A stretch of DNA of 64,000 nucleotides, taken from positions 6,882,001 through 6,946,000 of the forward strand of contig NZ_JAPEOZ010000001.1 in assembly GCF_026340655.1 (NCBI RefSeq), in the 5' to 3' direction. The stretch comes from Streptomyces sp. NBC_01275. GTDB taxonomy: Bacteria; Actinomycetota; Actinomycetes; Streptomycetales; Streptomycetaceae. The position numbers and the translations under genes are program-made. Shown one piece after another: positions 43,990 through 62,645 of the stretch. The notes below the pieces were generated by a model that did no database searches, was not told where the DNA came from, and saw only the letters and a program-made list of their open reading frames with translations. How positions within the stretch are numbered: position 1 is the first letter of the stretch; each line of letters opens with the position of its first letter.

Positions 43990-44033
43990 TCGATCTGCGA
44001 CACTGGTATGGCTATGCCTAAGCCCGGAGAACT
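43990..44033 (+). repeat. attL: left copy of the 44-bp att repeat
   Basis: Matches 62602-62645 at 42 of 44 positions; mismatches at 44008 (A/G) and 44013 (T/C). The right half is the 20-bp perfect core ATGCCTAAGCCCGGAGAACT (44014-44033), which encodes the first residues of RlmN (MPKPGE). Left of it lies the native rlmN upstream DNA; right of it, element DNA. Confidence 0.92.
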
Positions 44034-44415
44034 GGCAGTGATCCGGCAAGAACGGCCCCTGACCAGCGCCTTTGGTGCTGGGCAGGGGCCATTTGGCGTT
44101 CCTGGGCCGTCTACGGGCCGTCAGGGCTCTTCCATAACGATGTCGATGCCCTTTTGCAAGAGTGCGCCAGCCAGAACCAGTACGGCTCCACCAGCAGCCA
44201 CCCCAACGGGGCCGCCACACACGGCCATGGCGACAGAACCAGCCAGCATCGCAAACCCCGCGATCACAGCGATGTGTCCCCAAGTCTTCCGTTTGAGGTC
44301 CCCCACAGGGACGCCACCTTCGATAGACGTGAGTTCGTGTGCCTTGTTTTGTAGCTCCACGATCTCTGCAGGCCCATGCGTGGCCAGGTGGTCCAGTGCC
44401 TGGTTCACCAGATGA
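44014..44415 (+). pseudogene. Displaced rlmN start reading into the element
   Basis: The native rlmN start codon and first seven codons (MPKPGEL) remain here, then the frame runs into element DNA for 134 codons in total, antisense to the minus-strand gene at 44121-44723. A remnant, not a functional gene; it marks where rlmN began before integration. Confidence 0.75.
44054..44090 (-). terminator. Terminator at the left inner edge of the element
   Basis: ggcccctg (44054-44061) and caggggcc (44083-44090) with inner ccagc/gctgg and one mismatch. On the minus strand it follows the 200-aa gene. It may also insulate the element from the stranded rlmN promoter. Confidence 0.65.
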
Positions 44416-44723
44416 GCTACGCCTTCCGTATCATCCATGATGACCGATGCGTATTTGGACACTTTTTCCAGGGCATACCGCTCTTTTTCCGATGCTTGTT
44501 TGTAGGTGTCCAGCAGCCGAAGCACGAGGTCGGAGTGATCGTGAATGGCAGCGATGCCATCGGCCATGTCGCGCGCGAGTCCGGCTAGGTAAAGCCTGTC
44601 CCAGTCGCTAAGGGCAGGCTTCTCTGCCAAGCGCCGGGACCACACCTCGTCAGTCGCGAGCACGCGATTGCACTGTTCGAACAGGTGCAACGACTTGATC
44701 TGGTCCCGCAGCGCGCCATCCAT
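44121..44723 (-). CDS. Cargo protein with C-terminal membrane hairpin, unknown function
   Basis: 200 aa. The first ~145 residues are soluble and helical (MDGALRDQIKSLHLFEQCNR, then LHLFEQCNRVLATDEVWSRR), with a putative coiled region near DTYKQASEKERYALEKVSKY. Two adjacent hydrophobic helices follow (HIAVIAGFAMLAGSVAMAV and VGVAAGGAVLVLAGALLQ) before a short acidic end. I do not recognise the family. GGAG precedes the ATG. Lower GC than its neighbours and its position next to int mark it as cargo. A soluble domain plus membrane hairpin is seen in some membrane-acting defence effectors, but there is no direct evidence for that here. Confidence 0.7.
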   Translation of the reverse strand: MDGALRDQIKSLHLFEQCNRVLATDEVWSRRLAEKPALSDWDRLYLAGLARDMADGIAAIHDHSDLVLRLLDTYKQASEKERYALEKVSKYASVIMDDTEGVAHLVNQALDHLATHGPAEIVELQNKAHELTSIEGGVPVGDLKRKTWGHIAVIAGFAMLAGSVAMAVCGGPVGVAAGGAVLVLAGALLQKGIDIVMEEP

Positions 44724-44852
44724 TGAGTGCTCCGCTCTTTCGCCTGGCTTCGCAACTCACCCTAGGTACTCGTATGGGGACTCGCCTCTAGACGAGAGCC
44801 AGATGAATGACTGCCAGCATCGTTGCGCCTCTGCCCCGAGTGGAGACATCGG

Positions 44853-46091
44853 TTATCGGTGATCCCTCGCTGTAAACATTGCGTCGATTGCCTTTCCCGT
44901 CCGCTCTTGGCTGGATGGCATGAGGTGGGCGTACACCCGCAGCGTCAGCCCCGGGTCCGTGTGTCCCAGGTACTGGCTCACGGCCTTGATGCTCTCTCCG
45001 GCGTCCAGCAACACGGACGCGTAGAAGTGCCTCAGCGCGTGCATGCCGTGCTCGCGGGCGGACTCGTACTTGCCGTCGTCCCCGGCGTCCGGGATGAGGC
45101 CGGCCACGGAGAGCGCGGGCTTCCACTCCTGGATGTTGAAGTTGCTGCGCCACACGATCCCGCTCGAGGTGTTCGTGAACAGGAGTCGGACCGAGACTTT
45201 CGGCCCGTCGGGCTTCCGCCACGGCAGGGTGACGTCGACCGACTTGCAGGCGTCCATGTGGGCACGCAGGGCCTCAGCCACTGACGACGGCAAAGGCACG
45301 TCCCGTTCCTTGCCGCACTTCGGCGGGGCGAACACGGCCTTTCCCCGGATGAGCTTTACCTGTCGGACTACCCGCAGGATGCCGCCCTCGAAGTCGAGCG
45401 CGTCCTCAGCGAGTCCCACGATCTCGCCCTGACGGAGTCCGCATCCCGCGCCGACGTCCACCATGGTCCGGTACCGCTCGGGGAGTGCGCCACGGACCTC
45501 AAGCACCTGGGCGGGCAACCAGGGGACGACGCGCCGTCGTTCAGCGGCCGGCGGGCGGACGGACTTCGCGGAGCACGGGTTGCGAGGCAACAGGCCGTCG
45601 TCCACGGCCGCGCTGAGTACGGCTCGAACGTCGCCGTATATGTTGCGCGCGTACGCGCCGCTGACGGCGGGGTTGGCCTCCAACGCGCTCGTGAGTTCGC
45701 GGATGTGCTCGGGACGGAAGGAGTCGAGCGGGCGTGTGCCGAGGACGGGGAACGCGTGCAGGCGCAGGCGCTGTTCGGTGACGATCTGGCTGGACAGGTC
45801 CGCGCTGTGAGCCTTGAGCCACTTCTCGGCGTAGCCCTTGAAGGTGACCCTGGCCGCGCGAGGGTCTATGTACTGGCCGCGCGACATGTCGGAAGCGATG
45901 TTGGTCAGCCACTTCTCCGCGAGGCGCTTCTGTCCGTCGGGGAAGCTCTTGGACTTCTCGGTACCGTCGGGCCCGACGTACCGGGCCCGGTAGCGCATGC
46001 CCGTGCCGTGGCGGTCGGTCTTGATGCGGAGGGTCTTGCCGTCGGCGTCGGTCTCGCTCTTGAACCAGCGGTCTTGGATGTGGCCTGCCAT
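44853..46091 (-). CDS. int: Tyrosine recombinase (integrase)
   Basis: 412 aa. N-terminal AP2-like arm-binding and SAM-like core-binding domains, then the catalytic domain with Arg220 (GCGLRQGEI), His351-x-x-Arg354 (HALRHFYAS), His377 (YLGHTDP) and nucleophile Tyr387 (VYAHLM). Catalyses att-site recombination; the target here is the rlmN start. Start chosen at MAGHIQDRWF with GAGAGGA upstream. It lies next to attL, with only the 200-aa cargo gene between. A hairpin separates it from xis. Confidence 0.95.
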   Translation of the reverse strand: MAGHIQDRWFKSETDADGKTLRIKTDRHGTGMRYRARYVGPDGTEKSKSFPDGQKRLAEKWLTNIASDMSRGQYIDPRAARVTFKGYAEKWLKAHSADLSSQIVTEQRLRLHAFPVLGTRPLDSFRPEHIRELTSALEANPAVSGAYARNIYGDVRAVLSAAVDDGLLPRNPCSAKSVRPPAAERRRVVPWLPAQVLEVRGALPERYRTMVDVGAGCGLRQGEIVGLAEDALDFEGGILRVVRQVKLIRGKAVFAPPKCGKERDVPLPSSVAEALRAHMDACKSVDVTLPWRKPDGPKVSVRLLFTNTSSGIVWRSNFNIQEWKPALSVAGLIPDAGDDGKYESAREHGMHALRHFYASVLLDAGESIKAVSQYLGHTDPGLTLRVYAHLMPSSQERTGKAIDAMFTARDHR

Positions 46092-46116
46092 CGGGCAGTG
46101 GTCCTCTCTGGACATG

Positions 46117-46152
46117 CAGCAGGGAGAGCCGCGGGGGCGGCTCTCCCTGCTG
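46117..46152 (-). terminator. Hairpin between xis and int
   Basis: 16-bp perfect stem cagcagggagagccgc (46117-46132) and gcggctctccctgctg (46137-46152) with a 4-nt G loop. It probably attenuates transcription from xis into int, giving different levels of the two proteins. Confidence 0.75.
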
Positions 46153-46168
46153 TGTGGTGTGCGTTTGG

Positions 46169-46417
46169 TTAGGCGGCGGCGGTGTCGGCGTGCTTGCGCT
46201 GGTCGACGTAGGCGCGTACGTCGGCGGGGTCGTAGCGGAGGTGTTTGCCGATGCGGAAGCCGGGCGGGCCGATCCGCTTCTTGCGCCACTGGTAGACGGT
46301 CTCTTTCGGCACGTCGAAGATCTCGGCGATGTCGTCGGGCGTGAGGTATCGATCCGGGATGCCGCGCCACAGGACAACGCGGGGGTCGATCTCTTCGGGC
46401 AGGCGGTGCGGCTTCAC
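46169..46417 (-). CDS. xis: Excisionase / winged-helix DNA-binding protein
   Basis: 82 aa. MerR/Xis-type HTH: RYLTPDDIAEIFDVPKETVY, then QWRKKRIGPPGFRIGKHLRY. Same size and place (directly before int) as Xis in pSAM2-like elements, so a directionality factor for excision is the best reading. The upstream region is the GACAGAAC array. Confidence 0.88.
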   Translation of the reverse strand: MKPHRLPEEIDPRVVLWRGIPDRYLTPDDIAEIFDVPKETVYQWRKKRIGPPGFRIGKHLRYDPADVRAYVDQRKHADTAAA

Positions 46418-46496
46418 TGCGTCCTCCGAACGTGGGTGACCTTGCGCTGAGCCGTCACTCAGCGCGGGTTGGAGGGTGCTTGAGTCGGGATCCGCT

Positions 46497-46723
46497 GACA
46501 GAACTGACAGAACCTCGCTGCTAGGCCGCTGACCTGCTGCTTTACGGGGTTCGCGATCTTTGACAGAACTGAGTTAAAACCTGACAGAACCTCGGCGGGC
46601 GGGGTTCTGTCACGGAGGCTCCCGGCGCGGGGCGGGGAGTTCTGTCGAGTTTTAACCAGGTTCTGTCACAAGCGCGATGATGCGTGTTTATGCAGGTCAG
46701 CGAGTCACGGTGGGGGTTCTGTC
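46497..46723. repeat. Array of eight GACAGAAC boxes (four direct, four inverted), candidate oriV
   Basis: GACAGAAC at 46497-46504, 46506-46513, 46562-46569, 46583-46590; its complement GTTCTGTC at 46604-46611, 46639-46646, 46660-46667, 46716-46723. The array is symmetrical around ~46597. Two copies extend into 19-bp arms (46562-46580 and 46649-46667) matching at 16 of 19. It lies between the 3' end of the replication gene and xis; the surrounding 333 bases hold no gene. Iterons for replication or a regulatory region for xis-int are the likely roles. Confidence 0.75.
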
Positions 46724-46750
46724 AGTTGTGTCGGCGGGTTGGGGGTTGTG

Positions 46751-48295
46751 TCAGGGGCTGCGGGTGATGCGGGGGTGGGTTTCGTAGCGGGGCGAGGGCG
46801 GCCGGCCGCCGCGGCCGGTGCGCGGCGGCGGGGGGATCTGCCGGATCCAGCCGTGCTCTTCGAGCAGGGCCAGGGCGGGGTCGAGGTCGCCGATGGCGGG
46901 GAAGTCCGCCCGCCGCAGGGCCCGGAAGAGCTCCCGTTTGGTGAACTGCGTGAGAGCGCCGGTGACGAGCTGGGCGAGGACGGTGAGGGCGGCGTCGTGG
47001 GCGGGGTCGGCGCTCATGGTGTCGAACACGTCCAGGGCATGCGCGGTGAAGTAGTCGCCCAGCTCGGTCGCGGCGGCCATGGTGGCGGCCTCGATCGGCT
47101 TGTGCCAGCCGTCCTCGGGGTGGGCGGCCAGGTGCAGCAGGCCGGCGATGCGGGCGACGGCTCCGTCGCGCTTGGAGGCCCATTTCACGATCGGGGCGTA
47201 GCTTCCGTCCGGGCCGAGACGCGACTCGGTGACTTTCTGGAAGGCGAGCAGGACCGCGTCGGCCTCGGGGGTGAGCTGGAGCAGGGCGGGGTCGGTCCAG
47301 TCGGCCAGGGCGAGGGTGAGGCCGCTCAGGCTCCTGCTGTAGGCGGCGGTCACCTGCTCGTCGAGCAGGTCGGGTGTGAGGTTGCGACGCCCGACCAGGG
47401 AGAGGGGCTTGGAGTAGAGGAAGCGGGCGAGCAGACCGCGGCCGTCGGCTCCGTCGATGCGGGAGAGCGCGTCGAGGACTTCCGGCTGGACGGCGAGGCC
47501 GACGGTGACGGCGGGGGCGTCGATGTGCTGGGCTTCGCGGCCCTGGCGGTTGACGCGGATCATGTCGCCGGCGTGGCCTTTGAGGAACATGCCCATGTTG
47601 GGCTTGCCGCTGTAGCGGCCGGCGATGATGTCGAACAGCTCGCCCTCGGCGCTCAGGCAGGCGATCCGCCCGCCCTGCTGGTCCAGCAGGGTCCCGATGT
47701 TCTCCGGGGTCACGTCGTCCGCGACGAGCTGCGGCACGGCCGGAACGCTCATCTCGTCCACGGCCTGGGCCAGTTCGACGGCTTCGGCGGTCAGTCCGGC
47801 GCGCTGGTCCGGCTCTGCGTCCGAGGCTTTGCCGGCGGCCTTGTCGGCGGCCGTCTTGGCCAGACGGAGCGTCGTCTCCGCCTCCGCCCGCACGGGCCCG
47901 GACAGCTCGATCAGGGCTTTCTCCGCGGCGAGCAGGGGGCGGACCATGAGGTCGAACACGGCGCTCTTGCGGTTGCCGGGGTCCAGGGCGACGGCGGTGT
48001 AGATGTTGACCGGCTCGCGCCAGTGCCCGCGCACGCACACCTTCACCCGGCCGCCGGCCGCGGTGGCAAGGACGGCGAGGGCGAGGCACCCGGCGAGGTC
48101 CGCCGGGGTCTGCGTCTCCTCGGCCACCCCGCGCACCATGCCGGCGAGCCAGCCGGGCAGGGCGTCGACGGGGAAAGCCGGGAGCGGGGGCCGGGACTTG
48201 AGGGGTACCGGCTCGTCCCATACGGGTCCGGCGATGTCCTCGGCGGTCAGGTCGAACCCTTCCCACAGATCAGGGCTCACGTCGTTCGCGGTCAT
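46751..48295 (-). CDS. DUF3987/YfjI-type replication-associated protein
   Basis: 514 aa. Start MTANDVSPDLWEGFDLTAED fixed by AAGGAGG. Recognisable DUF3987 blocks: GCLALAVLATAAGGRVKVCV, NIYTAVALDPGNRKSAVFDL (a P-loop-like position with GNRKS), LVADDVTPENIGTLLDQQGG, and EGELFDIIAGRYSG. Such proteins pair with Prim-Pol proteins on phages and integrative elements as helicase or initiator partners. A C-terminal winged helix is likely (ALRRADFPAIGDLDPALALL). Last gene of the four-gene minus-strand cluster; it overlaps the preceding gene (ATGA). Confidence 0.75.
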   Translation of the reverse strand: MTANDVSPDLWEGFDLTAEDIAGPVWDEPVPLKSRPPLPAFPVDALPGWLAGMVRGVAEETQTPADLAGCLALAVLATAAGGRVKVCVRGHWREPVNIYTAVALDPGNRKSAVFDLMVRPLLAAEKALIELSGPVRAEAETTLRLAKTAADKAAGKASDAEPDQRAGLTAEAVELAQAVDEMSVPAVPQLVADDVTPENIGTLLDQQGGRIACLSAEGELFDIIAGRYSGKPNMGMFLKGHAGDMIRVNRQGREAQHIDAPAVTVGLAVQPEVLDALSRIDGADGRGLLARFLYSKPLSLVGRRNLTPDLLDEQVTAAYSRSLSGLTLALADWTDPALLQLTPEADAVLLAFQKVTESRLGPDGSYAPIVKWASKRDGAVARIAGLLHLAAHPEDGWHKPIEAATMAAATELGDYFTAHALDVFDTMSADPAHDAALTVLAQLVTGALTQFTKRELFRALRRADFPAIGDLDPALALLEEHGWIRQIPPPPRTGRGGRPPSPRYETHPRITRSP

Positions 48296-48651
48296 GCGGC
48301 CGTACCTCCTTCCAGGGTGCGGGGGATGCGGGGGCAGGCGGTGCGGTGCCGGGTGTGGTCTTCCACGAGCCGGGCGACCGCGGCGCGCCCTACGGCGTGG
48401 CGGTCGTAGCCGCACGAGCACCAGGAACGTCCGGACGGCGTCACGCTCCAGTCCGGTGGTGCCGTGATGTGCAGCCACACCACGGGGCGACGCCCGTCGT
48501 CCGGGCACAGCTCCGAGCGACGTGCAGAAGGGACGCCCTTGCGGGCGGCGACCTTCGGCTCGCATGCGCCCGCCGGGTCCACAGGCTGTGGAGCGGCCTG
48601 CAGATGGCGGGTTGTGGCGGGAAGGCTCTTAGTAGGCGGGGGGTTGGTCAT
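48292..48651 (-). CDS. Small cysteine/histidine-rich element protein
   Basis: 119 aa. SWCSCGYDRHAVG followed by VEDHTRHRTACP gives a C-x-C...H-x-x-H...C set that could bind zinc. Coupled by ATGA overlaps on both sides, between the Prim-Pol and DUF3987 genes, so probably a replication accessory. Family not recognised. Confidence 0.65.
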   Translation of the reverse strand: MTNPPPTKSLPATTRHLQAAPQPVDPAGACEPKVAARKGVPSARRSELCPDDGRRPVVWLHITAPPDWSVTPSGRSWCSCGYDRHAVGRAAVARLVEDHTRHRTACPRIPRTLEGGTAA

Positions 48652-49568
48652 GCCGTTCGCCTGCCGGCCGGGTTGTGGGCGATGGACCAGTCCAGCCCGC
48701 GGGTGATGACGTCGTCGTAGTAGCGCTGCGACCGGGTGGCGTTGCCCGCCGCCGCCTTGCTAAGAGCCTCCTCGACCTCCCCGCGGTCGAGGTCGCCGGA
48801 CGCGATCAGCCGACCGAGCGCCCGTGCGGCCTTGAGCAGCGTGGCGTTGCGGGTTCCGTCCGCGGCGCACGCGACGTTGTCGACCTCGCCGCGCAGCGCT
48901 GCCGCGGCGTACCCCCTCGCGCTCTTCATGGAGTTCGGGATGGCGTACGTGGGGCGTTGAGGGCGTTTGAGGGCGTCGTGCAGCCAGCCGGGCAGCGGGG
49001 CGGGCGGGCGGTCGTCGAGGACGGTGTACGTGCCGTCCGGGGTGGTGCTGCCGGGGGCGACGACGTATCCGCCCCAGCCGCGGGTGTCGATCTTCTTGGC
49101 GAGGCGTCCGGCGGTGCTGTGCAGGCGGGCACCGGGGGGCTGGGTGAAGTACAGGTGTTCCCCGCCGCGCGCGGTCCGCACCCGGTAGGTGTCGGGGACG
49201 GTCTGTCCGGCGCGCTCGCAGAGCGCTGCGAAGTTGGCGACGCCGTCAGGCGTTCCTTTCGGCTCCTGGGGCTTGAGGGTGTCGAGGTCGACTACCAGGA
49301 GCCCGGAGGGGCCGGTGGCGATGCCGACGTTGTAGGGCTGCTGCGTCCACGCCGCGGTCAACAGGCCCTTGTCGGTGGTGGCGCGCTCCTCTGGGGTCTT
49401 GTGCCCGTCGGCGCAACGGCCCGTGTGGGGGCAGTACTTTTCGGCGTGGCCGGCCGGGCGCTTGTCCATGGGCCGCAGGGGAATGACCGGCCAGTCCCGC
49501 CGTGAGGCTTCGAGAGCCCAGGCGAGCAGCCCCAGCCGGGAGAGGTCCGTGTTCAGGGAGATGGTCAT
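48648..49568 (-). CDS. Bifunctional DNA primase/polymerase (Prim-Pol, AEP superfamily)
   Basis: 306 aa. N-terminal WPVIPLRPMDKRPAGHAEKY and CPHTGRCADGHKTP, metal-binding LLVVDLDTLK (D-x-D), TARGGEHLYF with the conserved His, and KIDTRGWGGYVVAPGSTTPD are Prim-Pol signatures. Primes or copies DNA during element replication. Unlike the chromosomal homologue at 10558, the catalytic Asp pair is intact. Overlaps both neighbours by 4 nt. Confidence 0.88.
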   Translation of the reverse strand: MTISLNTDLSRLGLLAWALEASRRDWPVIPLRPMDKRPAGHAEKYCPHTGRCADGHKTPEERATTDKGLLTAAWTQQPYNVGIATGPSGLLVVDLDTLKPQEPKGTPDGVANFAALCERAGQTVPDTYRVRTARGGEHLYFTQPPGARLHSTAGRLAKKIDTRGWGGYVVAPGSTTPDGTYTVLDDRPPAPLPGWLHDALKRPQRPTYAIPNSMKSARGYAAAALRGEVDNVACAADGTRNATLLKAARALGRLIASGDLDRGEVEEALSKAAAGNATRSQRYYDDVITRGLDWSIAHNPAGRRTA

Positions 49569-49912
49569 GCGGCCGCGTTCCCGTCTGCCCACAGGCTGAG
49601 GACGCGGTCGTTGAGGCCGTCTCCGGCGGAGGCGATGGCGGTTTGGTCGTCGGTGCGGACGGCGTCGAGCAGGGCGGCGGCCTCCGGGGTGGGGCCGGGG
49701 TCCTCGATGCCGTCTAGTTCGCGGGCCAGGGTGCGCAGCAGGGACCAGGTCACGTACCGGTCGAGGAACATGCGGTACTCGATCAGGGTGAGCGTCGGGC
49801 CGACGGTGACCAGGGTGAGGATCACGCTCCCGTCGGAGCTCGGCTCAATGCCGGTGCTGACGACACGTTCGGTGCCCTCGGGCAGTCGCGGATGGATGCT
49901 GTGGTCGGGCAT
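49565..49912 (-). CDS. Hypothetical element protein
   Basis: 115 aa, acidic: MPDHSIHPRLPEGTERVVST start, a beta-rich first half (ILTLVTVGPTLTLIEYRMFL) and a helical second half. Family not recognised. First gene of the replication cluster, coupled by ATGA to Prim-Pol. CTGGAG lies before the start. Confidence 0.6.
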   Translation of the reverse strand: MPDHSIHPRLPEGTERVVSTGIEPSSDGSVILTLVTVGPTLTLIEYRMFLDRYVTWSLLRTLARELDGIEDPGPTPEAAALLDAVRTDDQTAIASAGDGLNDRVLSLWADGNAAA

Positions 49913-50697: not shown

Positions 50698-52902
50698 TCA
50701 GGCGTGGTCGGGGTGGACGTAGACCGAGTGCGGTCCGTTGTCCCGGTAGACCAGCTCGCCCCGCTCGGCGGCGGCCTTGAGCGCGTCGCGCACGCCCTGC
50801 CGGCTGCGGTTGACGCGGTCGGCGACGGCGGACGGCTTCATGCCCGCCGGTCCTGCTTCGGCGATCGCGGCGATCGCGCCCGCCAGCCAGTCCGGCCCGC
50901 CGTCCCGCCCCGCCGTCGTTCCCGGCTCCGGGGTGGTGCCGTGGTCGTCGCGCAGGGCGGACAGGTTCAGTCCCGGACGCTGCGGCCGCTCCCGCTCCCG
51001 TTCCGGCTGGGGTTGGGCGTGGTCGGGTTCGGTGGTGGTGCCGAAGTGTTCGTCGATCTCGCGCATGAACGCGTCCGCGAGCCGGTCGACGTCCGACCCC
51101 GCCTCCTGCTCCGGTGTCGGCGGCGGGGCGGGCTGGTCGCGCAGGGCCGAGAGGTTCAGTCCGCGCCGCGGCTCCCCGCCCGCCCCGCCGTCGGCGGGGG
51201 TGAGGGGTGTGGGCTGGGGGCTGTGCATCCAGTCGATCCGGTCGGCGTCCCACCTCCGCGCGTACGTCTCCCCGGCCGCTTTGGCGGAGACGTCGTCGAG
51301 GGCGGGGTGGCGTTCGCTGGTGGCGGCGACGATCTCGCGGATCTGGCTGGGCAGGATCCGCCAGCACTTGAACAGCGCGGCCGGCGACTCCGGGGTGCCC
51401 ATGAACCCGGCTCCCTTGTAGGGGGCCTGGTCGACCTTGAGGCCGCGGGTGCCGGGGAACAGCTTGGACAGGTCCATGCCCTCCTTCTCCCCGCCGGTCA
51501 GGGCGACCCTGACCTTCGCCTCGCGGCGGATCATGAGGTTGCCGAGGACGGAGCCGGTGGAGCCGAGGGCGGTCAGGACGGTGCGCACGCCCATGGCGCG
51601 CAGCATCCGGATGACTTCGAGGATCTTCTTCGCGAGTTCCTTCAGGGTCTTGTCGGTGCTGGTGAGGATCTCGGCTCCCTCGTCGACGACCAGCATGATC
51701 TGCGGGATCGACGGCCCGACCGGCAACAGGTCGGTGTCCTCCCGCGCCATGAGGGCCTGGTAGGAGATCTTGCGCTGCTTCCCGATCCGCAGCACCGCGT
51801 CCAGCATCAGGTGGGCTTCCTCGACCGTGCCCGCCAGCCAGTCGATCCCCGGCCGCATCGGACGCTCACCGGGCGCGGGCTGATGCCCGAGAGCGGGAAG
51901 CACCCAGGACAGGCCGGCCGATCCGGCGTTCAGGTCGATCACGAACGTGAGCACGTCGACCGCGCGGGCGAACCCGGCCAGGATCACGTGGACCATGTTC
52001 GTCTTGCCCGACCCGGTCGGCCCGACGACCAGCGCGCACTGTTCCCGCAAGTACGTGAGGATCTGTTCGGCGTTGGAGCGGTAGCCCCACGGGATCCCGG
52101 TGTGCAGGGAGAGCGGGGCGTAATCGGAGGGGTAGGGGGTTTCGGTCTCCAGGGCGTTGACGGTGGCTACGTCGATGAGGGTGCGGCCCTGGTGGACGCC
52201 CGGTCCCGCGGTGGCCGTGCAGCCGTGCGGGAGGTGAGCGTCCGCCGACAGAGCGGCCGCCCGCACGGCGATCTGGTCATACGTGGTGGCACCGGGGAGT
52301 TCCGCGTCGATCGTGAACCCGGTCCCCGTCGGCCAGCGCTCCACCGCCAACACTCGCACGCTCACCCCGCACACCCGCCGGATCCGGTCGATCCATTCCT
52401 CGGCGATCGCCCGCCGCTCCTGCGACAGCTCCAGCGCCACCGCCCGCTCCTCCGCGGCCAGCGCCTCTTCCTCACGGGCCTCTTCATAGAGGTCGGTCGA
52501 GCGGGTGACGGTGGCCGTTGCGACGCCGATGACGGCGAGGGAGCCGAGCGCCTGCCAGGTGAGCGGGCCGTTGGTCATGGCCCAGGTGGTCCAGCCCGCG
52601 CCGACGAGCCAGGACGCGGCGCGGGCGGCGACGGTACGGCCGGCGTTGCTCAGCCGGATGCCGGCGGCGGTGTGGCCGATCGCGCCGGCCGCGCCGACGG
52701 CGAGCGCCCAGCCCGGGGGCATGCCGGTCGCCGCGCCGGTGGTGGCGACGGCGAACGCGCCGGTGGTGGCGGACAGGGCACCGGTCACGGGTCCGTGACC
52801 GGCCGCCCAGTCCCACACCGGACCACCGCCGCTCCCGGCCTCCTGCTTCGGCTTGCTGCTGTTCTTGCTGCTGGTCACGGCCGTCTCGGTGGTGGTGGTC
52901 AT
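50698..52902 (-). CDS. FtsK/SpoIIIE-type conjugative DNA translocase (TraB/TraSA-like)
   Basis: 734 aa. Membrane helices near residues 42-130, a coiled stretch, the motor with Walker A VGPTGSGKT (293-301) and Walker B IMLVVDEGAE (Asp407, Glu408). A Pro/Glu-rich linker follows, with GLNLSALRD occurring twice, then a C-terminal winged helix (about 672-734: MKPSAVADRVNRSRQGVRDA) like FtsK gamma. Actinomycete TraB moves double-stranded plasmid DNA between hyphae as a hexameric pore, without relaxase. Start MTTTTETAV sits 2 nt after the upstream gene. Confidence 0.92.
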   Translation of the reverse strand: MTTTTETAVTSSKNSSKPKQEAGSGGGPVWDWAAGHGPVTGALSATTGAFAVATTGAATGMPPGWALAVGAAGAIGHTAAGIRLSNAGRTVAARAASWLVGAGWTTWAMTNGPLTWQALGSLAVIGVATATVTRSTDLYEEAREEEALAAEERAVALELSQERRAIAEEWIDRIRRVCGVSVRVLAVERWPTGTGFTIDAELPGATTYDQIAVRAAALSADAHLPHGCTATAGPGVHQGRTLIDVATVNALETETPYPSDYAPLSLHTGIPWGYRSNAEQILTYLREQCALVVGPTGSGKTNMVHVILAGFARAVDVLTFVIDLNAGSAGLSWVLPALGHQPAPGERPMRPGIDWLAGTVEEAHLMLDAVLRIGKQRKISYQALMAREDTDLLPVGPSIPQIMLVVDEGAEILTSTDKTLKELAKKILEVIRMLRAMGVRTVLTALGSTGSVLGNLMIRREAKVRVALTGGEKEGMDLSKLFPGTRGLKVDQAPYKGAGFMGTPESPAALFKCWRILPSQIREIVAATSERHPALDDVSAKAAGETYARRWDADRIDWMHSPQPTPLTPADGGAGGEPRRGLNLSALRDQPAPPPTPEQEAGSDVDRLADAFMREIDEHFGTTTEPDHAQPQPERERERPQRPGLNLSALRDDHGTTPEPGTTAGRDGGPDWLAGAIAAIAEAGPAGMKPSAVADRVNRSRQGVRDALKAAAERGELVYRDNGPHSVYVHPDHA

Positions 52903-54546: not shown

Positions 54547-55629
54547 TCAGGCGGCGCGCTGTTCGTCGGTGCGGGTGAAGGCGTCGAACTGGGCGGGAGT
54601 GATCAGCCCGGACTCTCGCCATTCGGCGAGCAGATCGGCTTGCCCCTCGACGTCGTCGCACTTGGAGCACAGCCGTCCGGCCGGGCGGCGGGAGCGCGGG
54701 CCCGGCGGGCGCTGCCCCCACTTGCACGCGGGCAGGCCCGCGGCTTCCGTCTCGCGCTCCAGCTCCCGCAAGGGCTTGGTGGCGTGGGGGTAGAAGTACT
54801 CGATCTCGTCGAGTTCGCCGGGCTTGGCGAACGCTCCGCACAGGCACTCCCCGGACATGTGCAGGTGAGCGGTGACCTCGTTCAGGGGCAGTGCGTCCGG
54901 GGTGCACATCTGGTGTTCGGCGTGCTCGTGCGGGAGGGTGCAGCGGTGCCGGGCCCGGTATTCGCGCATGTGGGCGTCGGTCCAGTGCACGATCGGGGAC
55001 ACCCAGATCAGCGCGCCCTCACGGTCGACCTCTTCGGCGTTGCGGAATCGCCGGTGGGTCTCCGCCCACCGCATGCCGCCCAGGTAGACGACGTTGCGGG
55101 AACGCCCGCGCGAGCCGATGATCTGCCCGCGCAATCGCTGAAGGGGTTCGTCCTTGAGTCGGCGGTACATGACGGAGTGCCCGGCCGGGCCGGGGAAGCC
55201 CTTCCACACCGGGCGGCCGATGCTCTTGCCGCGGGTGGCGAGCACGTTGCCGAGCACGAGATCCCGATAGGAGTGCTTGGGGTGCAGCTCGTGCAGGGGC
55301 AGGCCCCAGGAGGCGACCACGTCGCGAACGTGCTGGGTGGTCTCCGGGATGCCGGTCCCGGTGTTGACGTGCGCGACCGCGTCCACCCGGCGGCGGAAGA
55401 GGTGGTTGACCACCACGGAGTCGTTGCCGCCGGAGAACAGCCCGACCGTGGCGACGACGGGGAAGGCGGCCAGGACGCGGTCGAGGATCGCGACCGAGCG
55501 GGCGATCGCCTCATCCAGCGTCATCGCTTCCGGCTCCGTCTCCGCTTTCGGAGGGCGGCCGGCGATCCGGTCGGCCATGCCCGGGAACATGTCCCCGACC
55601 GGTTGCCGGCGCTTGTTGCGAGAGGTCAT
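54547..55629 (-). CDS. PAPS-reductase-like ATP-pyrophosphatase with cysteine cluster
   Basis: 360 aa. PP-loop SGGNDS at 66-71 inside ATVGLFSGGNDSVVVNHLF; NTGTGIPET and YRDLVLGN follow the PAPS reductase/DndC pattern. GRSRNVVYLGGMRWAETHRR adds the usual substrate region. Seven cysteines (230, 242, 262, 264, 302, 321, 324) in the C-terminal half could hold an Fe-S cluster. Homologues adenylate or reduce sulfur substrates, and DndC/SspD-type members thiolate DNA. No dndB/D/E or sulfurtransferase genes are nearby. It lies in the transfer operon, 9 nt after the DUF2637 gene. Confidence 0.8.
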   Translation of the reverse strand: MTSRNKRRQPVGDMFPGMADRIAGRPPKAETEPEAMTLDEAIARSVAILDRVLAAFPVVATVGLFSGGNDSVVVNHLFRRRVDAVAHVNTGTGIPETTQHVRDVVASWGLPLHELHPKHSYRDLVLGNVLATRGKSIGRPVWKGFPGPAGHSVMYRRLKDEPLQRLRGQIIGSRGRSRNVVYLGGMRWAETHRRFRNAEEVDREGALIWVSPIVHWTDAHMREYRARHRCTLPHEHAEHQMCTPDALPLNEVTAHLHMSGECLCGAFAKPGELDEIEYFYPHATKPLRELERETEAAGLPACKWGQRPPGPRSRRPAGRLCSKCDDVEGQADLLAEWRESGLITPAQFDAFTRTDEQRAA

Positions 55630-55638: not shown

Positions 55639-56508
55639 TCAACCGGCGATCGCGGCGGGGAAGTCGGCCAGGTACGGCTCACGCGCCTTGACCCGGCCCC
55701 GCGCCGTGCGCGCCGTCGACTCCGACCCGCCCAGCCCGACGGCGGTCATGGCCTGCGTCATCCGCGCCGAGCTCGGCTGCGTGAAATCCGACCCGTACAG
55801 CGCCCGCACCAACTGATCGACCCGGTTGGCGTAGACGACCGGCGTGCACAGATCGACGGCCGTCGACCGGGCGTCGACAGCGGCCGGTCCGGCGGTGACG
55901 GGCGTCGAACCCGCCTCGACGCCGACCGGCAGCGCGGCGAGCTCCGGCACCGGGTCCGGCTCGATCGCCGGGGGTGCGGGCGGTGCGGCGGGCAGGCGGT
56001 CGACGCTCACGTCGACGGGCGTCGAAGCCACGTCGACGCCCGGGGGCGGGAGGGTGACGGGCGTCGACGCGCGGCGTGCGAGGTAGGCGTGCACCTGACG
56101 CATCAACGCCCCGAACGCCAGCAGCGCGGCCACCGGAGGCACCGCGGCCACCACGTAGTCCAGAGCGTTGGCGTCCTTGCCGACCCCGGCGACGTTCAGC
56201 GCGATGGAAGCGCCGTCGCCCGCGGCGACCAGGCCGATCGCCCACCCGTCGACCTTGTGGGCGAGGGAGGCGCGCAGAATCAGCAGCTCGCCGATCACGA
56301 TGAACAGATCCACCGTGGCCGGCCACGCCCACGACCGCGCGACCGCTTCGGCCATGCCGTGGGCGGCGGCCACCTCCTGCAAGTGCTCATACGACAGCCA
56401 GAAGGCGACCGCGGTCAGCAGCACCGTGAGCACGGCCGCGATCGCGGTGATGGCCTTTTCCACGTCGACGGGCGTCGACGACGCGTCGACGTAGGCGGGC
56501 GCGCTCAT
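55639..56508 (-). CDS. DUF2637 family membrane protein (Spd-like)
   Basis: 289 aa. Four N-terminal membrane helices; HLQEVAAAHGMAEAVARSWA and WPATVDLFIVIGELLIL are DUF2637 hallmarks. The cytoplasmic linker repeats the peptide (A/G/S)STPV several times (about residues 10-15, 147-167, 203-222) and ends in a helical domain (VYANRVDQLVRALYGSDFTQ). DUF2637 proteins are routine next to AICE transfer genes; function unproven. ATGA overlap with the preceding gene. Confidence 0.8.
   Translation of the reverse strand: MSAPAYVDASSTPVDVEKAITAIAAVLTVLLTAVAFWLSYEHLQEVAAAHGMAEAVARSWAWPATVDLFIVIGELLILRASLAHKVDGWAIGLVAAGDGASIALNVAGVGKDANALDYVVAAVPPVAALLAFGALMRQVHAYLARRASTPVTLPPPGVDVASTPVDVSVDRLPAAPPAPPAIEPDPVPELAALPVGVEAGSTPVTAGPAAVDARSTAVDLCTPVVYANRVDQLVRALYGSDFTQPSSARMTQAMTAVGLGGSESTARTARGRVKAREPYLADFPAAIAG
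55855..56478. repeat. Dispersed GACGGGCGTCGA repeats inside the DUF2637 gene
   Basis: Exact copies at 55897-55908, 56014-56025, 56056-56067 and 56467-56478, plus the variant GACGGCCGTCGA at 55855-55866, often flanked by further GTCGAC palindromes. They encode the recurring STPV-type peptide. Confidence 0.6.
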
Positions 56509-57142: not shown

Positions 57143-57238
57143 GCCGTTTATGGGGTTCAGCCGCACGCGACGTGCGGCACGGCCGCAGCAGCGGCCGAAG
57201 CGCCCCGGCCGAAGCGGCGGGGCGGACATGCGGGTTGG

Positions 57239-57934: not shown

Positions 57935-58110
57935 GGTTCACTGATTCAGGTGGCGATCCGCCTTGCGGTGCACCTCAAGAAGACAGGTCGAGACGGGGGT
58001 CTCGGTACCTCACAGGACTTAACCCCCGTCCTGTTAACCCCTGTTGACCTGCAACAACGCGAGCCATGCTGGGATGGTGGGTGTATGGAGCTATCGCCGG
58101 ACGGTGGTCC

Positions 58111-59241
58111 GTGAGCACAGGACTTCGAAGCGCGCGAACGGCGCGGGGCTGGTCCCAGGAGCGACTGGTCCGAGAGATCGAGCAGTACGCCCGACGACAC
58201 GTCACTGACGTTGCTTCGACGGCGAGTCTGCGGGTGTACGTGTCCGAGTGGGAGAACGGCAAGCGCACCATCTCGGACCGCTATGCGGCCATCCTGCGCA
58301 GCCTTCTGGGAACCACGGACGCAGAGCTGAGGGGTGACGCATCGCAGGTCGCTGTGCCCGTGGTGGACGGCTATGACGAGTTGCTGAGCAGGATCGATTC
58401 AGCCAGCAGCATCAGCGGGTCCATGGTGCAAGCCTTCGAGGCGCAGACGGAGTTGCTCCGCACCATGGACCGTGAGCGCGGCGCTGCCAGCCTTGTGGAC
58501 CAGGTGACGGGGCATCTCTCCGCTCTTGAGGACGCGCTCAACTTCGCGGTGCTGCCGGGCGCGCGCCGCCCGATCGCGCTCGCGCTCGCGGGCGCGTCGA
58601 CCATGGCCGCGTGGCAGGCGATCGACTCGGGTGCGGTCGAACGAGCCTGGAGAAACTACGAGTTGGCGAAGCGCGCGGCGCGCGACGCTGAGGCTCCGAT
58701 GTATCTGGCTCACGCCATGGCGGAGCAGGCGTACGTACTGTGCGAGGCGGGCCGGCCAGCACTGGGGGTCGACCTGGTCCGCGATGCTCAACGCGTTCTC
58801 GGCGGGGACGGTTCGCCACGTCTTCGGGCGTGGCTGTTCGGCGCAGAAGCTGAGCTGTGCGCCCGCGCGGGGATGGACGACGACTGCCGGCGCGCCCTCG
58901 ATGCCGCTACGGAGTGCATCCCGGCGGGGTCGGGGGACCGTGACCCGGACATGCTGAGCATCTTCTTGAACGGTGCGCATCTGGCCCGTTGGCGTGGCAG
59001 CGTGCTTGCCCTGCTCGGTGACGGTGACGCCGTGAGTAGCCTCTACAGCGCCCTTGAGGTGGCAGACCCGACCTTCGTGCGGGCGCGCGCGGGACTGCAC
59101 ACCGATCTCGCGCAAGCCCATCTGGCACGAGCCGAGTACGACGACGCGCGCACCCACCTGAGGGAGGCTCGACTACTGGCGAACCGCACCAGCTCGGTGC
59201 GACAGCGCCGACGGGTGGACATGCTCAGTGCGCGGCTGTAA
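58111..59241 (+). CDS. XRE-family regulator with TPR-like C-terminus
   Basis: 376 aa from the GTG at 58111; starts at 58066 or 58081 are possible. HTH: LRSARTARGWSQERLVREIE and VYVSEWENGKRTISDRYAAI. The remainder is helical, TPR-like (AWRNYELAKRAARDAEAPMY, DARTHLREARLLANRTSSVR). Such proteins often bind a signal and switch element genes. In pSAM2 the KorSA target is the activator pra; this gene holds the equivalent regulatory position but is not homologous as far as I can tell. Overlaps the convergent GntR-Nudix gene by 17 nt. Confidence 0.8.
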   Translation: MSTGLRSARTARGWSQERLVREIEQYARRHVTDVASTASLRVYVSEWENGKRTISDRYAAILRSLLGTTDAELRGDASQVAVPVVDGYDELLSRIDSASSISGSMVQAFEAQTELLRTMDRERGAASLVDQVTGHLSALEDALNFAVLPGARRPIALALAGASTMAAWQAIDSGAVERAWRNYELAKRAARDAEAPMYLAHAMAEQAYVLCEAGRPALGVDLVRDAQRVLGGDGSPRLRAWLFGAEAELCARAGMDDDCRRALDAATECIPAGSGDRDPDMLSIFLNGAHLARWRGSVLALLGDGDAVSSLYSALEVADPTFVRARAGLHTDLAQAHLARAEYDDARTHLREARLLANRTSSVRQRRRVDMLSARL

Positions 59242-60013
59242 GCCCCTGCTTGCCACGGCTGGCCAAGATGTGAAGCAGGGCGACCAGCGTTCCGGAGCCC
59301 ATCAGCTCACCACGAGCCATGAGTCCTGGAATGTCGGCGAGCGGAACCCACTCGATGTGGCCCGCCTCTTCGAGATCCGTCGGAGAGCCGACCTGTTCAG
59401 CCCCGTGGCCCACGAAGATCTCGTGTGGCGAGTCCACCATGCCAATCATCGGCTGATAGGTGACCACATGCTCGAGTGACTTCGGTCGCCAACCGGTCTC
59501 CTCGACGACTTCCCGGAGCGCAGTCTCCGCCGCATCCTCCCCTTCGTCCACGATCCCGCCGGGGAGCTCCCAGCCGAATTGCTGCGGGACGAAGCGGTAC
59601 CGCCACAGCATGAGGACGCGGTCCTGGTCGTCGACCACGGCCGTGACGGCGACGTGGTGCAGCTTCACGACGTGGTGCTCGAACCGCTCGACGCCGGGGG
59701 GCTCCACATCCCAGACCTGAAGCTTGACCCAACGGTTGTCGTAGACGTCGCGCTCGCCATGGATGCGCCACGGCTCCAGACCCTCCGGGGTCCTCACGCT
59801 CACCAGTCCCGGAACGCGGTAGGCGCTCCGGCCCCGAACTTCCAGTGCACCCTCGGACACGAGACGGGCAAGCACCTGTCGCAGCGCCGTCCGGCCGATG
59901 CCGAGTTCCTCGGTCAGGGTGCGTTCGGACGGGAGCTTGGTGCCGGGGGCGTACTCGCCTGACGCGAGCCGTTCGTGGAGCGTCTCGTAGACCTTGGTCG
60001 TCTTCGGGCCCAT
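59225..60013 (-). CDS. GntR repressor fused to a Nudix hydrolase (KorSA-Pif-like fusion)
   Basis: 262 aa. Residues 1-69: GntR winged helix (SGEYAPGTKLPSERTLTEEL, then GIGRTALRQVLARLVSEGAL). Residues 80-250: Nudix fold of the ADP-ribose-pyrophosphatase type, with WRYRFVPQQFGWELPGG and the complete Nudix box at 152-175 (GGIVDEGEDAAETALREVVE, then ETGW). pSAM2 encodes these as separate proteins: KorSA, which represses transfer and replication, and Pif, which gives immunity against redundant transfer. One protein probably does both here. ATG at 60013 chosen because the GntR domain starts there. Confidence 0.9.
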   Translation of the reverse strand: MGPKTTKVYETLHERLASGEYAPGTKLPSERTLTEELGIGRTALRQVLARLVSEGALEVRGRSAYRVPGLVSVRTPEGLEPWRIHGERDVYDNRWVKLQVWDVEPPGVERFEHHVVKLHHVAVTAVVDDQDRVLMLWRYRFVPQQFGWELPGGIVDEGEDAAETALREVVEETGWRPKSLEHVVTYQPMIGMVDSPHEIFVGHGAEQVGSPTDLEEAGHIEWVPLADIPGLMARGELMGSGTLVALLHILASRGKQGLTAAH

Positions 60014-60037
60014 GCGCGGAACACTCTCCGTTCTGCC

Positions 60038-60051
60038 GTGGTGCGTACCAG
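60038..60051. promoter_or_regulatory. Operator variant upstream of the GntR-Nudix gene
   Basis: GTGGTGCGTACCAG matches the 57887/57912 palindrome at 12 of 14 positions. It lies 25 nt before the gene start, with a possible minus-strand -10 (TACGCT) beside it, fitting autorepression. Confidence 0.6.
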
Positions 60052-60061
60052 CGTAGCGGCC

Positions 60062-60235
60062 ATGGGGGCACGCACCCTCCAGCTGGCAACTCGGCGTCGG
60101 GTCATTGACTGGTTGTCCCGTCTTGCAGCACTTGAGGGACGCACGTGGGTGCGCATCGACATATGGCGCACGAAAACGAACCTGCACGCCTACTACGAGC
60201 GGCGAGCGGATGGGGTTCCAGCGCGTTCGCACTGA
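60062..60235 (+). CDS. Possible 57-aa protein divergent from the regulator
   Basis: Frame MGARTLQLATRRRVIDWLSR, then RIDIWRTKTNLHAYYERRAD. No ribosome-binding site stands out. The amino-acid composition is plausible for a small DNA-binding protein, but no family is recognised. Confidence 0.3.
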   Translation: MGARTLQLATRRRVIDWLSRLAALEGRTWVRIDIWRTKTNLHAYYERRADGVPARSH

Positions 60236-60582
60236 GGCTTCGGATGATCAGCGCTCAGGCTGGCTCGCCCAACGATCTGCTTGAGAGTTGGCCATGCCTC
60301 AGACCTCCTGCCCGTATCCGCGGAGGACGTAAGGGCGCGCAGCGTCACACCTTGTGTCGAAGGCGTACCAGGTCAGAGGTAGGCATCGGCCGCGTGAGCC
60401 CATCGAGTAGGGCGAATCCACGTGTTCACTGTTTTCCTTTTCAAGGAGTGGCAGCCAACTCGGCGTGCGAGCTCGGGAAACCTCCATTAACGTGGAGGGA
60501 TAAGCGACCGCGCGATCGAAGAGACATTCTCGAGGTACCGCCAAGCAGTAGTTGGCAGGCAAATGACTTGAGGCATCCTGCT
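60236..60582. other. Non-coding stretch before the subtilase gene
   Basis: About 350 bases with lower GC than the element backbone. One small hairpin, cctcca/tggagg (60481-60498), and no credible gene. It presumably holds the protease promoter. Confidence 0.4.
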
Positions 60583-61965
60583 ATGAACACAGAACGCGCG
60601 CTTCCGGAAGAGAGCTCCGGGCAAATACCTGGGGAAGTACTCATCGAGCTGGCTCCCTGGCTGGCGGGCATGGTTAATCCCTTCATTCCGGATCCTTCCG
60701 GCTCTGCGTCTCCCGTGACAACCCTAGGCGACCCAGAGATAGACAGCGTTCTGGGTGAGATAGGCGTGTGGTCGATCACGCGCTTGTTCTTCAGGGGGCC
60801 GCCTAAGTGGGATGGGGCCAGGTTTAAATCCGACCCTGATGAGGATCACGTTAGCTATAGACTGCGGTTCGATCCGGAAGTGCCTGTCGACGAGGCGGTA
60901 GCGCGCTTGCTAGATACGAAAGGCAAGCGCATTGAGTTGGCTACGTCGAATGACTGGTATGTGAGCCTGGCTGTGGACCGGTCAGCACATGAAACTTTCC
61001 CAACCCAGTGGAACCTAGAGGCAATTGACTGCCCGAGAGCGTGGAGGCGCACTTACGGTGAACCTCACGTCGTGGTTGCTGTTATCGACTCAGGTGTCGA
61101 CTTCAACCATGCAGACCTGCAATCCAACCTGCTGCAGGGTAAGAACTGTGTGGACTTCACGGGGAAGCAGTATCCAGCAGGTAGAGAGCTTATAGGCAAC
61201 TACCTGCGGGCCAGTGATCGTCCAGATGACGAAGTCGGGCACGGTACGCATGTCGCTGGCACGATCTCTTGCGAATGTAGCCATCTTGGTGGGGTGACGG
61301 GGATGACGCGACGCTGTCGGATACTGCCGGTACGCGTCCTCGCCACGGCATACGAGCCAGTCAGGCGTGAATATGAAACCGTCGGCAACATGGCTAACCT
61401 GGCAGCAGGAATTCGATGGTCAGTGGACTGCGGCGGGGCCAGCATTTTGAATATGAGCTTGGGTAGGGCGAAGAACAACGAATTCGTACTCCGGGCCATC
61501 CATCACGCTCAAGACCGCGGAAAGATTCTGGTCGCTGCTGCTGGAAACGAAGGTCACGCGAAGAATAGGAAGATGTATCCAGCGGGATACTCTGGAGTTA
61601 TTGCCGTCGGTGCGACTGACCTTGATAATCAGCGTGCCTACTTCTCGAACAGTGGAGACCACATCGTTGTGTGTGCTCCAGGTGTGGGAATTAGTTCCAC
61701 GCATCTCAGTAATGGGCATGACACGCACAGTGGAACTAGTTTTGCGGCCCCTCACGTGAGCGGTCTTGCTGCCCTGATGATCTCCATTGCGCCCGACTTG
61801 ACGGCGGAGGAAGTCTCGACAATCATCCGAGAGACGGCTACGCCATTGCGTCAAGACCAGGCAGACCCCCATCCGAATCAAAATTTCGGCTGGGGGCTGA
61901 TCAATGCTGAAGCGGCCCTGTCCCGAGTGATGGAGCACGGAAGCGTATCTGGCGGGCACTCGTGA
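60583..61965 (+). CDS. Cytoplasmic subtilisin-like (S8) serine protease, cargo
   Basis: 460 aa. No signal peptide. An N-terminal ~150-residue region includes a possible inhibitor/propeptide-like piece (residues 88-131: YRLRFDPEVPVDEAVARLLD). The S8 domain has Asp169 (VVAVIDSGVDFNH), His220 (DEVGHGTHVAG), oxyanion Asn322 (AAAGNEG) and Ser386 (HSGTSFAAPHVSG), all intact. GAGG precedes the ATG. GC and codon use are visibly lower than in neighbours, marking recent acquisition. A small gene follows 68 nt downstream. Intracellular subtilases in such positions are sometimes parts of defence or toxin systems; no direct evidence here. Confidence 0.88.
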   Translation: MNTERALPEESSGQIPGEVLIELAPWLAGMVNPFIPDPSGSASPVTTLGDPEIDSVLGEIGVWSITRLFFRGPPKWDGARFKSDPDEDHVSYRLRFDPEVPVDEAVARLLDTKGKRIELATSNDWYVSLAVDRSAHETFPTQWNLEAIDCPRAWRRTYGEPHVVVAVIDSGVDFNHADLQSNLLQGKNCVDFTGKQYPAGRELIGNYLRASDRPDDEVGHGTHVAGTISCECSHLGGVTGMTRRCRILPVRVLATAYEPVRREYETVGNMANLAAGIRWSVDCGGASILNMSLGRAKNNEFVLRAIHHAQDRGKILVAAAGNEGHAKNRKMYPAGYSGVIAVGATDLDNQRAYFSNSGDHIVVCAPGVGISSTHLSNGHDTHSGTSFAAPHVSGLAALMISIAPDLTAEEVSTIIRETATPLRQDQADPHPNQNFGWGLINAEAALSRVMEHGSVSGGHS

Positions 61966-62033
61966 CTGGACTGGTTCGTTGTCTGGTCGCAGAGGTGTAC
62001 GGCGAGGGCGTCGGATAGAAGGAGTAGGAGTCC

Positions 62034-62276
62034 ATGGCAGTTCGCGTGATCGTGGAACTGGATTCTAAGTCGGACTGGCGGAGAGTAGTCCCGCAATTGC
62101 AGACGGTATTCGGTGCCGAGGGTGCTGTGCCGCCAGTGGAGGGGTGGCCAGACCACATGGTGGTTCTCTTCCCGGATGGCACCCCCGACGCTATTTGCGA
62201 TGACCTGACGACGGACGTGCCGGAGATCTTGCGAGCGCATCCTGACGAGTATTTTGTCGGGGATCCCAGTATGTGA
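62034..62276 (+). CDS. Small partner protein downstream of the subtilase
   Basis: 80 aa: MAVRVIVELDSKSDWRRVVP, then HMVVLFPDGTPDAICDDLTT. AAGGAG precedes the ATG. The alternation of beta strand, helix and beta strand, with an acidic end, would suit an I9-propeptide-like inhibitor or chaperone acting in trans, but this is only a shape argument. Same lower GC as the protease, so probably acquired together. Confidence 0.65.
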   Translation: MAVRVIVELDSKSDWRRVVPQLQTVFGAEGAVPPVEGWPDHMVVLFPDGTPDAICDDLTTDVPEILRAHPDEYFVGDPSM

Positions 62277-62601
62277 TCGAAGGCATCGAGGCGCAGAGCT
62301 GCTCAAACCTCGGCGTCTCCGCACCTTCCCTGCCCTGCGCCTCGACGTCTCCCCCTGCTGGCGCATGCGTTACGTGCGTTCACGCGTTCGATTCTAGTTT
62401 CGGGTGTGAGGGTGAGCACCACCGGCCCCAGCAAAGTCTCGCTCCGGGCCCAGGTGTCACGGTGAGGCAGCTTCACCTGCGCAGACACCCCGCTGGCCCC
62501 CGTGGGCCGGGCCGTCTGTGGGCCGTCCGAGGGGGGCCCAGGACGACCAGGGATGACCAACAACGACTACCCCGCAGGACTTCCGGCCCAGGCCACGAGA
62601 T
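62277..62601. other. Right inner end of the element, no gene
   Basis: 325 bases between the small cargo gene and attR. Repeats of a gcgtt-type pentamer occur near 62368-62390, which might be integrase arm sites, and it should supply the promoter now driving rlmN. No coding frame convinces. Confidence 0.4.
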
Positions 62602-62645
62602 TCGATCTGCGACACTGGTGTGGCCATGCCTAAGCCCGGAGAACT
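62602..62645 (+). repeat. attR: right copy of the 44-bp att repeat
   Basis: Direct repeat of 43990-44033 (42/44). Contains GACACT (62611-62616), a possible -10 about 10 nt before the rlmN ATG, and the 20-bp perfect core that encodes the first RlmN residues. Confidence 0.92.

Follow-up and report, generated by a model that had tools for sequence, protein, structure and literature searches.

Integration at the 5' end of a gene with replacement of its promoter is already known from dusA and prfC, and rlmN has been published as the site of one actinomycete integrative and conjugative element (AICE), AICE03 of Streptomyces RLB3-6, which is flanked by an 11-nt direct repeat (PMC9513070; statements on papers given by PMC number refer to the accessible parts of each). 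IMEVchUSA3 brings a new promoter and N-terminus to dusA, and expression was shown with a reporter, at a reduced level (PMC8409611); a promoter was predicted for dusA islands in PMC4482086. SXT is likewise a conjugative element in the 5' end of a gene, prfC, to which it supplies promoter and N-terminus (cited in PMC8409611). Integrated SpyCIM1 blocks transcription of mutL (PMC4689407), and the title of PMC3430984 announces rescue by a SpyCI-encoded promoter. pSAM2 itself integrates at a tRNA gene (PMC3218068). Here we describe an 18,612-bp insert at rlmN of Streptomyces sp. NBC_01275, contained in a 64,000-nucleotide stretch of contig NZ_JAPEOZ010000001.1 (positions 6,882,001 to 6,946,000, the whole of which is termed the window). 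Judged by its genes, the insert is a Streptomyces AICE. Quite probably it integrated within CCCGGAGAACT, in the first codons of rlmN, and supplies a near-copy of the rlmN upstream box and start, which would make it near-neutral for its host.

The rlmN start at the two ends of the element

The insert is bounded by the two copies of a 44-bp direct repeat (43990-44033 and 62602-62645), identical at 42 of 44 positions. With the flank included identity is 51/58, and it falls to only 18/50 in the next 50 bp upstream. Within the repeat lies a 20-bp core, ATGCCTAAGCCCGGAGAACT. Allowing up to 2 mismatches, the 10.4-Mb genome contains this core twice and the reversed pattern, used as a control, not at all. 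The second repeat copy forms the start of rlmN (TIGR00048, 320 bits, cut-off 290). The first, placed after cdsA and an SRPBCC-type gene, leads into a frame of 133 codons other than rlmN. These observations confirm what the initial annotation had noticed, namely a 44-bp repeat around the element, a core made of the first codons of rlmN and a native rlmN start stranded at the left end. The features of both ends, with attL and attR for the left and right attachment (att) sites, are as follows.

Before 43404..43853: cdsA (CTP_transf_1, 227 bits), in the same order in empty relatives
43404..43853, + strand: chromosomal flank gene (Pfam Polyketide_cyc2, 65 bits), which from its Pfam family we take to be of SRPBCC type
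43990..44033, + strand: attL, with the stranded native rlmN upstream box, start codon and first codons
43994..44006, + strand: native rlmN promoter-like box, TCTGCGACACTGG
44023..44033, + strand: exchange interval CCCGGAGAACT at attL, from 18 two-ended elements
44054..44090, + strand: left-end hairpin, a possible terminator (fold; covariation in 44 left ends)
44104..44122, + strand: left arm repeats GGGCCGTC-N3-GGGCCGTC, probable integrase arm sites
62509..62527, + strand: right arm repeats GGGCCGTC-N3-GGGCCGTC, 117 and 106 bp before the rlmN ATG
62602..62645, + strand: attR, with the element-supplied box, start codon and first codons of rlmN
62606..62618, + strand: element copy of the promoter-like box, TCTGCGACACTGG
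62635..62645, + strand: exchange interval CCCGGAGAACT at attR, from 18 two-ended elements
62626..63732, + strand: rlmN (TIGR00048, 320 bits), its codons ahead of the exchange interval being element DNA

Exchange was mapped in 18 elements, that of the window included, that have both ends on a single stretch. The blocks of identity between attL and attR intersect at core positions 10-19, CCCGGAGAAC, and extend to core position 20 or further in 17 of the 18, hence CCCGGAGAAC(T). By this comparison the 20-bp core was ruled out as the exchange site. The interval falls within codons 4-7 of rlmN; therefore the ATG, codons 2 and 3 and all upstream DNA at attR are element DNA, and the rlmN start at attR is supplied by the element. 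The insertion thus lies inside the 5' coding end of the gene, with start and frame restored by ATG CCT AAG and the frame open to the rlmN stop, as had been claimed from the sequence at the outset. The accompanying view of an AICE that enters rlmN at its 5' end is supported both by gene content and by exchange in codons 4-7. A tRNA gene as target was ruled out, there being no tRNA within the window, and an Rfam scan of 40000-64000 gave no match.

Comparison with empty relatives had been set beforehand as the test by which the initial annotation could fail. Eight loci, found by their SRPBCC flank or by the core, were read. Five have cdsA, the SRPBCC-type gene and rlmN without an intervening element, and the site is present in four of these (L099, L107, L112 and L251), with box, ATG and CCCGGAGAACT leading straight into rlmN; in L099 the box ends in TG in place of GG. 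The fifth, L250, did not follow suit and is weighed below; the outcome is thus mixed, though largely in favour of the annotation. Of the other three loci, L249 has 1.2 kb between the SRPBCC-type gene and rlmN, L252 is occupied and L253 has the SRPBCC-type gene alone. The repeat might also be read as an old duplication of the rlmN start and not an att pair. This reading, which has no support beyond the repeat itself, can practically be dismissed, as empty relatives exist, the arm repeats at the two ends match, and 35 of 80 integrase relatives (the best 80 of 108 were kept, nearly all of them Streptomyces) have the core, at up to 3 mismatches, next to the integrase.

The upstream box, the arm repeats and the left-end hairpin

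A total of 188 core copies, duplicates included, were classified as empty-like (87), attL (45), attR (18), rlmN without cdsA in reach (24) or others (14). Empty-like sites have rlmN after the core and cdsA at most 3.5 kb before it with no integrase between, and the attR class has an integrase upstream. The box at -20 to -8 is 94-100% identical per position in 84 empty-like sites (duplicates removed), which were selected by their core, and 18 integrase-linked right ends, whereas positions -60 to -40 of these 18 right ends reach only 33 to 88% identity. The exact 13-mer stands at 71/84 empty-like sites and at 16/18 integrase-linked right ends, and TCTGCGACACTGG occurs only twice in the genome of NBC_01275. 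The box was rejected as a regulon motif (8 one-mismatch genome matches versus 11 in a reversed control). The cdsA-rlmN gap ranges from 38 to 2401 bp across the 84 empty-like sites; GATCTG occurs in 4 of the 29 with a gap below 200 bp and in 43 of the 55 with a longer one, as in most element ends.

Within the box, TGC-GACACT may be read as an extended -10 element, and the purine at -3 could be where an almost leaderless mRNA begins. RlmN is present in 58 of 60 genomes across the class, and 30 loci were returned, 26 of them non-Streptomyces. At least 7 of the 26 (L221, L222 and L226-L230) have -10-like hexamers at the place of the box by eye (GAGAATGG, GACAATGG, GACACTGG); some of the seven are near-identical to one another and most are without the exact core. 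No -10-like hexamer was visible by eye in most of the other non-Streptomyces loci. A WhiA site at GACAC in the box was considered and not taken up: the motif has only five bases and 15,116 copies in S. venezuelae, and neither 'radical SAM' nor 'methyltransferase' occurs in the accessible main text of that report (PMC3781837).

Two types of rlmN start occur in Streptomyces, and the box accompanies the att site. As a control, rlmN was read in 30 of 148 Streptomyces genomes without the core. The exchange sequence CCCGGAGAACT is retained in a variant start in 10/30, and the box is found in 11/30, unaltered in 8 and with a single mismatch in 3; what follows it is usually a variant start such as ATGCCTGCACCCGGAGAACT. 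Nearly all of the 19 box-less genomes have a GAGGAG- or AAGGAG-type ribosome-binding site and another N-terminus, such as MARP, and the exact exchange sequence is kept in only 2 of the 19 (by eye). RlmN is 86-98% identical in the same-genus genomes read, with one exception at 68%. The box-type start may be the older of the two, because box-like hexamers occur in other actinomycetes. The alternative start was seen at L272, L276-L279, L281-L291, L293 and L294, which are possibly sites closed to elements.

Both ends carry a pair of GGGCCGTC repeats, which probably are integrase arm sites. The pair usually lies 117 and 106 bp before the ATG in right ends and stands behind the hairpin in the left end. 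Sites were tested for the arms at up to 3 mismatches, with duplicates and sites with less than 160 bp upstream dropped. All 15 integrase-linked attR passed, as did 13/21 rlmN sites without cdsA in reach and 4/4 of the other sites. Of the empty-like sites, 12/52 passed where the distance to cdsA exceeds 200 bp and 0/26 where it is shorter; a shuffled control gave 1/87. The hairpin was compared in 44 left ends, where 12 of 16 pairs have changes on both sides; cells changed on both sides number 53, against 21.5 after shuffling, and slid controls do not exceed 17. The hairpin is perhaps a terminator. A similar hairpin is visible by eye in sister elements at other sites; it is thus a family feature, and the claim that it is special to 5'-end insertion was lowered accordingly.

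We propose that tyrosine recombination within CCCGGAGAACT, in codons 4-7 of rlmN, would sever the gene from its own upstream DNA and start. The right end would then supply a near-copy, consisting of TCTGCGACACTGG, a short spacer and ATG CCT AAG, and rlmN would be read in frame from element DNA. Because box and start are replaced in frame, integration would probably have little effect on the host. The host start stranded at the left end would point into the element and meet, about 20 bp past the core, the conserved hairpin, which may limit transcription into the integrase region, and the paired GGGCCGTC on both sides would probably be bound by integrase as arm sites. The repeat and the element-supplied rlmN start are established; the main inference drawn from them is probably right, and a promoter brought along with the start is what we infer from the box. 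The initial annotation, the interpretation of which is partly supported as a whole, had rlmN transcribed from a promoter of the element. The start and the near-copy box were indeed found in element DNA, in silico; the consensus scan for such a promoter was negative at both ends. Its suggestion that the element could alter RlmN levels and A2503-linked antibiotic sensitivity appears less likely in its strong form, since the two copies share an identical -10-like box and diverge only further upstream.

Several observations weigh against this interpretation. A sigma-70 consensus scan finds no promoter at either element end, the hexamer GACACT is without the usual first T, and the hairpin has no T tract and was not called by a terminator scan. 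In the empty relative L250 both box and core are missing and rlmN starts differently, 148/392 Streptomyces genomes are without the 20-bp core at up to 2 mismatches, and the box is not genus-wide, being absent (at least 5 mismatches) from 19/30 core-less genomes. Two of 26 long-gap attL flanks pass the arm test (short-gap, 0/12). The putative transfer protein Tra scores 18.5 bits, under the Pfam PF01580 cut-off of 24. In addition, box and core co-occur, which a need of the integrase would explain as well.

Such a need, in the form of extended core binding, would mean that the box is kept in element DNA for the integrase and not as rlmN promoter. This explanation, which we regard as unlikely, draws on the 19/30 core-less Streptomyces genomes that are also without the box and on attL/attR identity of up to 46 bp in one element. 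It is countered by the 16 bp between box and exchange interval, by the -10-like variants at the box place in at least 7/26 other actinomycete rlmN loci and by the 9 of 11 box-bearing core-less genomes in which arm scores are no better than 4 mismatches, with no sign of an element end. Alternatively, rlmN might be transcribed mainly by readthrough from the rightmost element genes, the one at 62034-62276 and the subtilase, both of which face rlmN with no consensus terminator found between. We find this rather improbable, as no gene was called in the roughly 350 bp between the last element gene and rlmN and the same box is retained in other right ends. A growth-phase switch of the SpyCI/mutL kind, by which the integrated element would lower RlmN and its predicted excision restore it, is very improbable. 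Insertion at a 5' end, the replication genes of the element and the different DNA upstream of the native and element boxes would all suit such a switch; integrated SpyCIM1, however, blocks mutL transcription (PMC4689407), whereas start, frame and box are restored in silico at attR here, which speaks against shut-off.

Orphan right ends and integrase relatives

Two signatures were used to survey 392 Streptomyces genomes. The right-end signature (arms plus box) is present in 50 genomes and the left-end signature in 27, with both in 22, right only in 28 and left only in 5; reversed right- and left-end patterns were found in 0/392. The signatures recover 16/18 known right ends and 37/42 known left ends. 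At 17 of 18 right-end places checked, rlmN follows. The exception is G064, with rlmN at C1:6287836 and the signature at C1:5559376-5559484, which would be either another site or an end that has moved. Among the 28 right-only genomes, seven were checked. Three (L127, L148 and L212) have rlmN and a nearby cdsA with no integrase between, L199 has a distant integrase (34%), L143 and L158 were left without class, and the last is G064. Orphan right ends that still start rlmN thus exist, as shown by the 12/52 arm-positive empty-like sites and the three right-only genomes without integrase, two of which belong to the 12. In several two-ended elements the best integrase piece found by tblastn covers only part of the protein, which fits element decay. 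In L091, L109, L194 and L209, right ends with arms and core have no rlmN after them; these are perhaps tandem-element junctions or other sites. Tentatively, elements may mimic the host rlmN promoter and leave it behind on decay, repeatedly overwriting the 5' control region of rlmN, with some Streptomyces lineages having escaped the site by adopting another rlmN start, which has a ribosome-binding site and lacks attB; we think this possible rather than likely.

Among the kept integrase relatives, the rlmN site is used by 32/32 at 70% identity or above and by 3/48 below. In a tree of 79 rows (the partial L029 and L031 dropped, the window added), 33 rlmN rows form one supported set with 5 others, L058 stands apart, and the starred branches force at least two changes. 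Eight of the 45 other-site relatives, chosen for a visible gene end, were checked by Pfam. All eight abut gene 3' ends, of histidine-phosphatase (3), glutamine synthetase (4) and EPSP-synthase-family (1) genes; rlmN is therefore the 5'-end exception among the sister targets within these 8 of 45. The 10.9-kb element of L015 at rlmN encodes RepSA (493 bits) and FtsK/SpoIIIE (160 bits) and is a pSAM2-type AICE, and that of L117 has DUF3987 and Prim-Pol in common with the window element but not Tra. The integrase/att module is thus combined with different AICE backbones, two of which use the rlmN site. Integrases 67-69% identical and nested near the rlmN set (L032, L033, L034, L036 and L038, near 11330) share another att-like sequence, GAAGTTCCTCAACT. 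L113 (G388) is an rlmN-site element with an integrase only 47% identical and the same right-end design, and the G388 genome holds three forward core copies.

Gene content and comparison with described elements

Between its ends the element encodes the following proteins.

44121..44723, - strand: uncharacterised protein at the left end (no Pfam or PADLOC family at E<=0.001)
44853..46091, - strand: tyrosine integrase (PF00589, 56 bits, cut-off 27; frame extended upstream)
46169..46417, - strand: excisionase-like HTH_17 protein, Xis (excise model below cut-off)
46751..48565, - strand: DUF3987 protein, probably replication (PF13148, 330 bits; true start probably near 48295)
48648..49592, - strand: bifunctional primase-polymerase, Prim-Pol (PF09250, 154 bits, cut-off 22.8)
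50698..52902, - strand: Tra, divergent FtsK/SpoIIIE-type translocase (PF01580, 18.5 bits, under cut-off 24)
52905..54458, - strand: uncharacterised protein beside tra
54547..55629, - strand: PAPS-reductase-domain protein (PF01507, 36 bits)
55639..56508, - strand: DUF2637 protein
58066..59241, + strand: NsdA-family regulator (NF053720, 148 bits, cut-off 75)
59225..60232, - strand: GntR and NUDIX protein (PF00392, 67 bits; PF00293, 67 bits)
60145..61965, + strand: subtilase (S8) cargo, start uncertain (PF00082, 166 bits)
62034..62276, + strand: small protein without family match

The integrase scores above its PF00589 cut-off and is accompanied by an att pair and by empty relatives, and the replication module includes a Prim-Pol well recognised by PF09250 (154 bits versus 22.8). 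Among the Tra homologues in the matches listed, 2/120 (70-71% identity) carry PF01580 and several are named FtsK domain-containing; a search of PDB by sequence with Tra gave no match. The AICE of the window is unlike SXT, an integrative and conjugative element with type IV secretion in gammaproteobacteria. The subtilase near the rlmN end matches the PADLOC 'subtilase' model (106 bits) and is a possible defence gene; the PAPS-reductase-domain protein in the transfer region has no PADLOC match. The element is assigned to the AICEs because integrase, Prim-Pol, DUF3987 and a divergent, putative FtsK-like Tra match the anatomy and module list (RepSA, RepAM or Prim-Pol) given in PMC3218068.

New here are the rlmN-site integrase set, the shared arm repeats with a covarying hairpin, the two backbones, the orphan right ends and the second type of rlmN start. 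A literature search, with supplements and most subscription papers outside its reach, found no description of the copied rlmN box, orphan right ends or arm repeats. The locus shows how the beginning of a conserved core gene can house a conjugative element: the element carries a near-copy of the upstream box and the first codons and not just the att core. The att site so defined, comprising exchange interval, arm repeats and hairpin, would be useful for an integration vector. Two ideas are made testable: that core genes can acquire lasting promoters from the ends of mobile elements, as element-less right ends suggest, and that hosts may change a gene start and thereby lose the site.

AICE03 resembles the window element in being an AICE in rlmN, and its 11-nt repeat has the length of the exchange interval, as a comparison of lengths and not of letters. 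Its int/xis differ from those of same-backbone siblings at tRNA-Val, and a combination of the integrase/att module with different backbones, as seen here, was proposed for AICE03; the accessible text makes no mention of a 5' end, frame restoration or remnants at rlmN, and the main text contains neither 'promoter' nor 'restore' (PMC9513070). Like the rlmN element, SpyCI inserts at a 5' end, that of mutL; SpyCI excision restores the gene. The pSAM2-type AICE of L015 has RepSA, whereas the window element uses Prim-Pol and DUF3987. The dusA islands, like the rlmN element, enter the 5' end of an RNA-modification gene, and differ in belonging to Proteobacteria and having another integrase family. 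By contrast to the new dusA N-terminus, which is 61% identical over 35 residues, the N-terminus of rlmN is unchanged here and the box is a near-copy of the host's.

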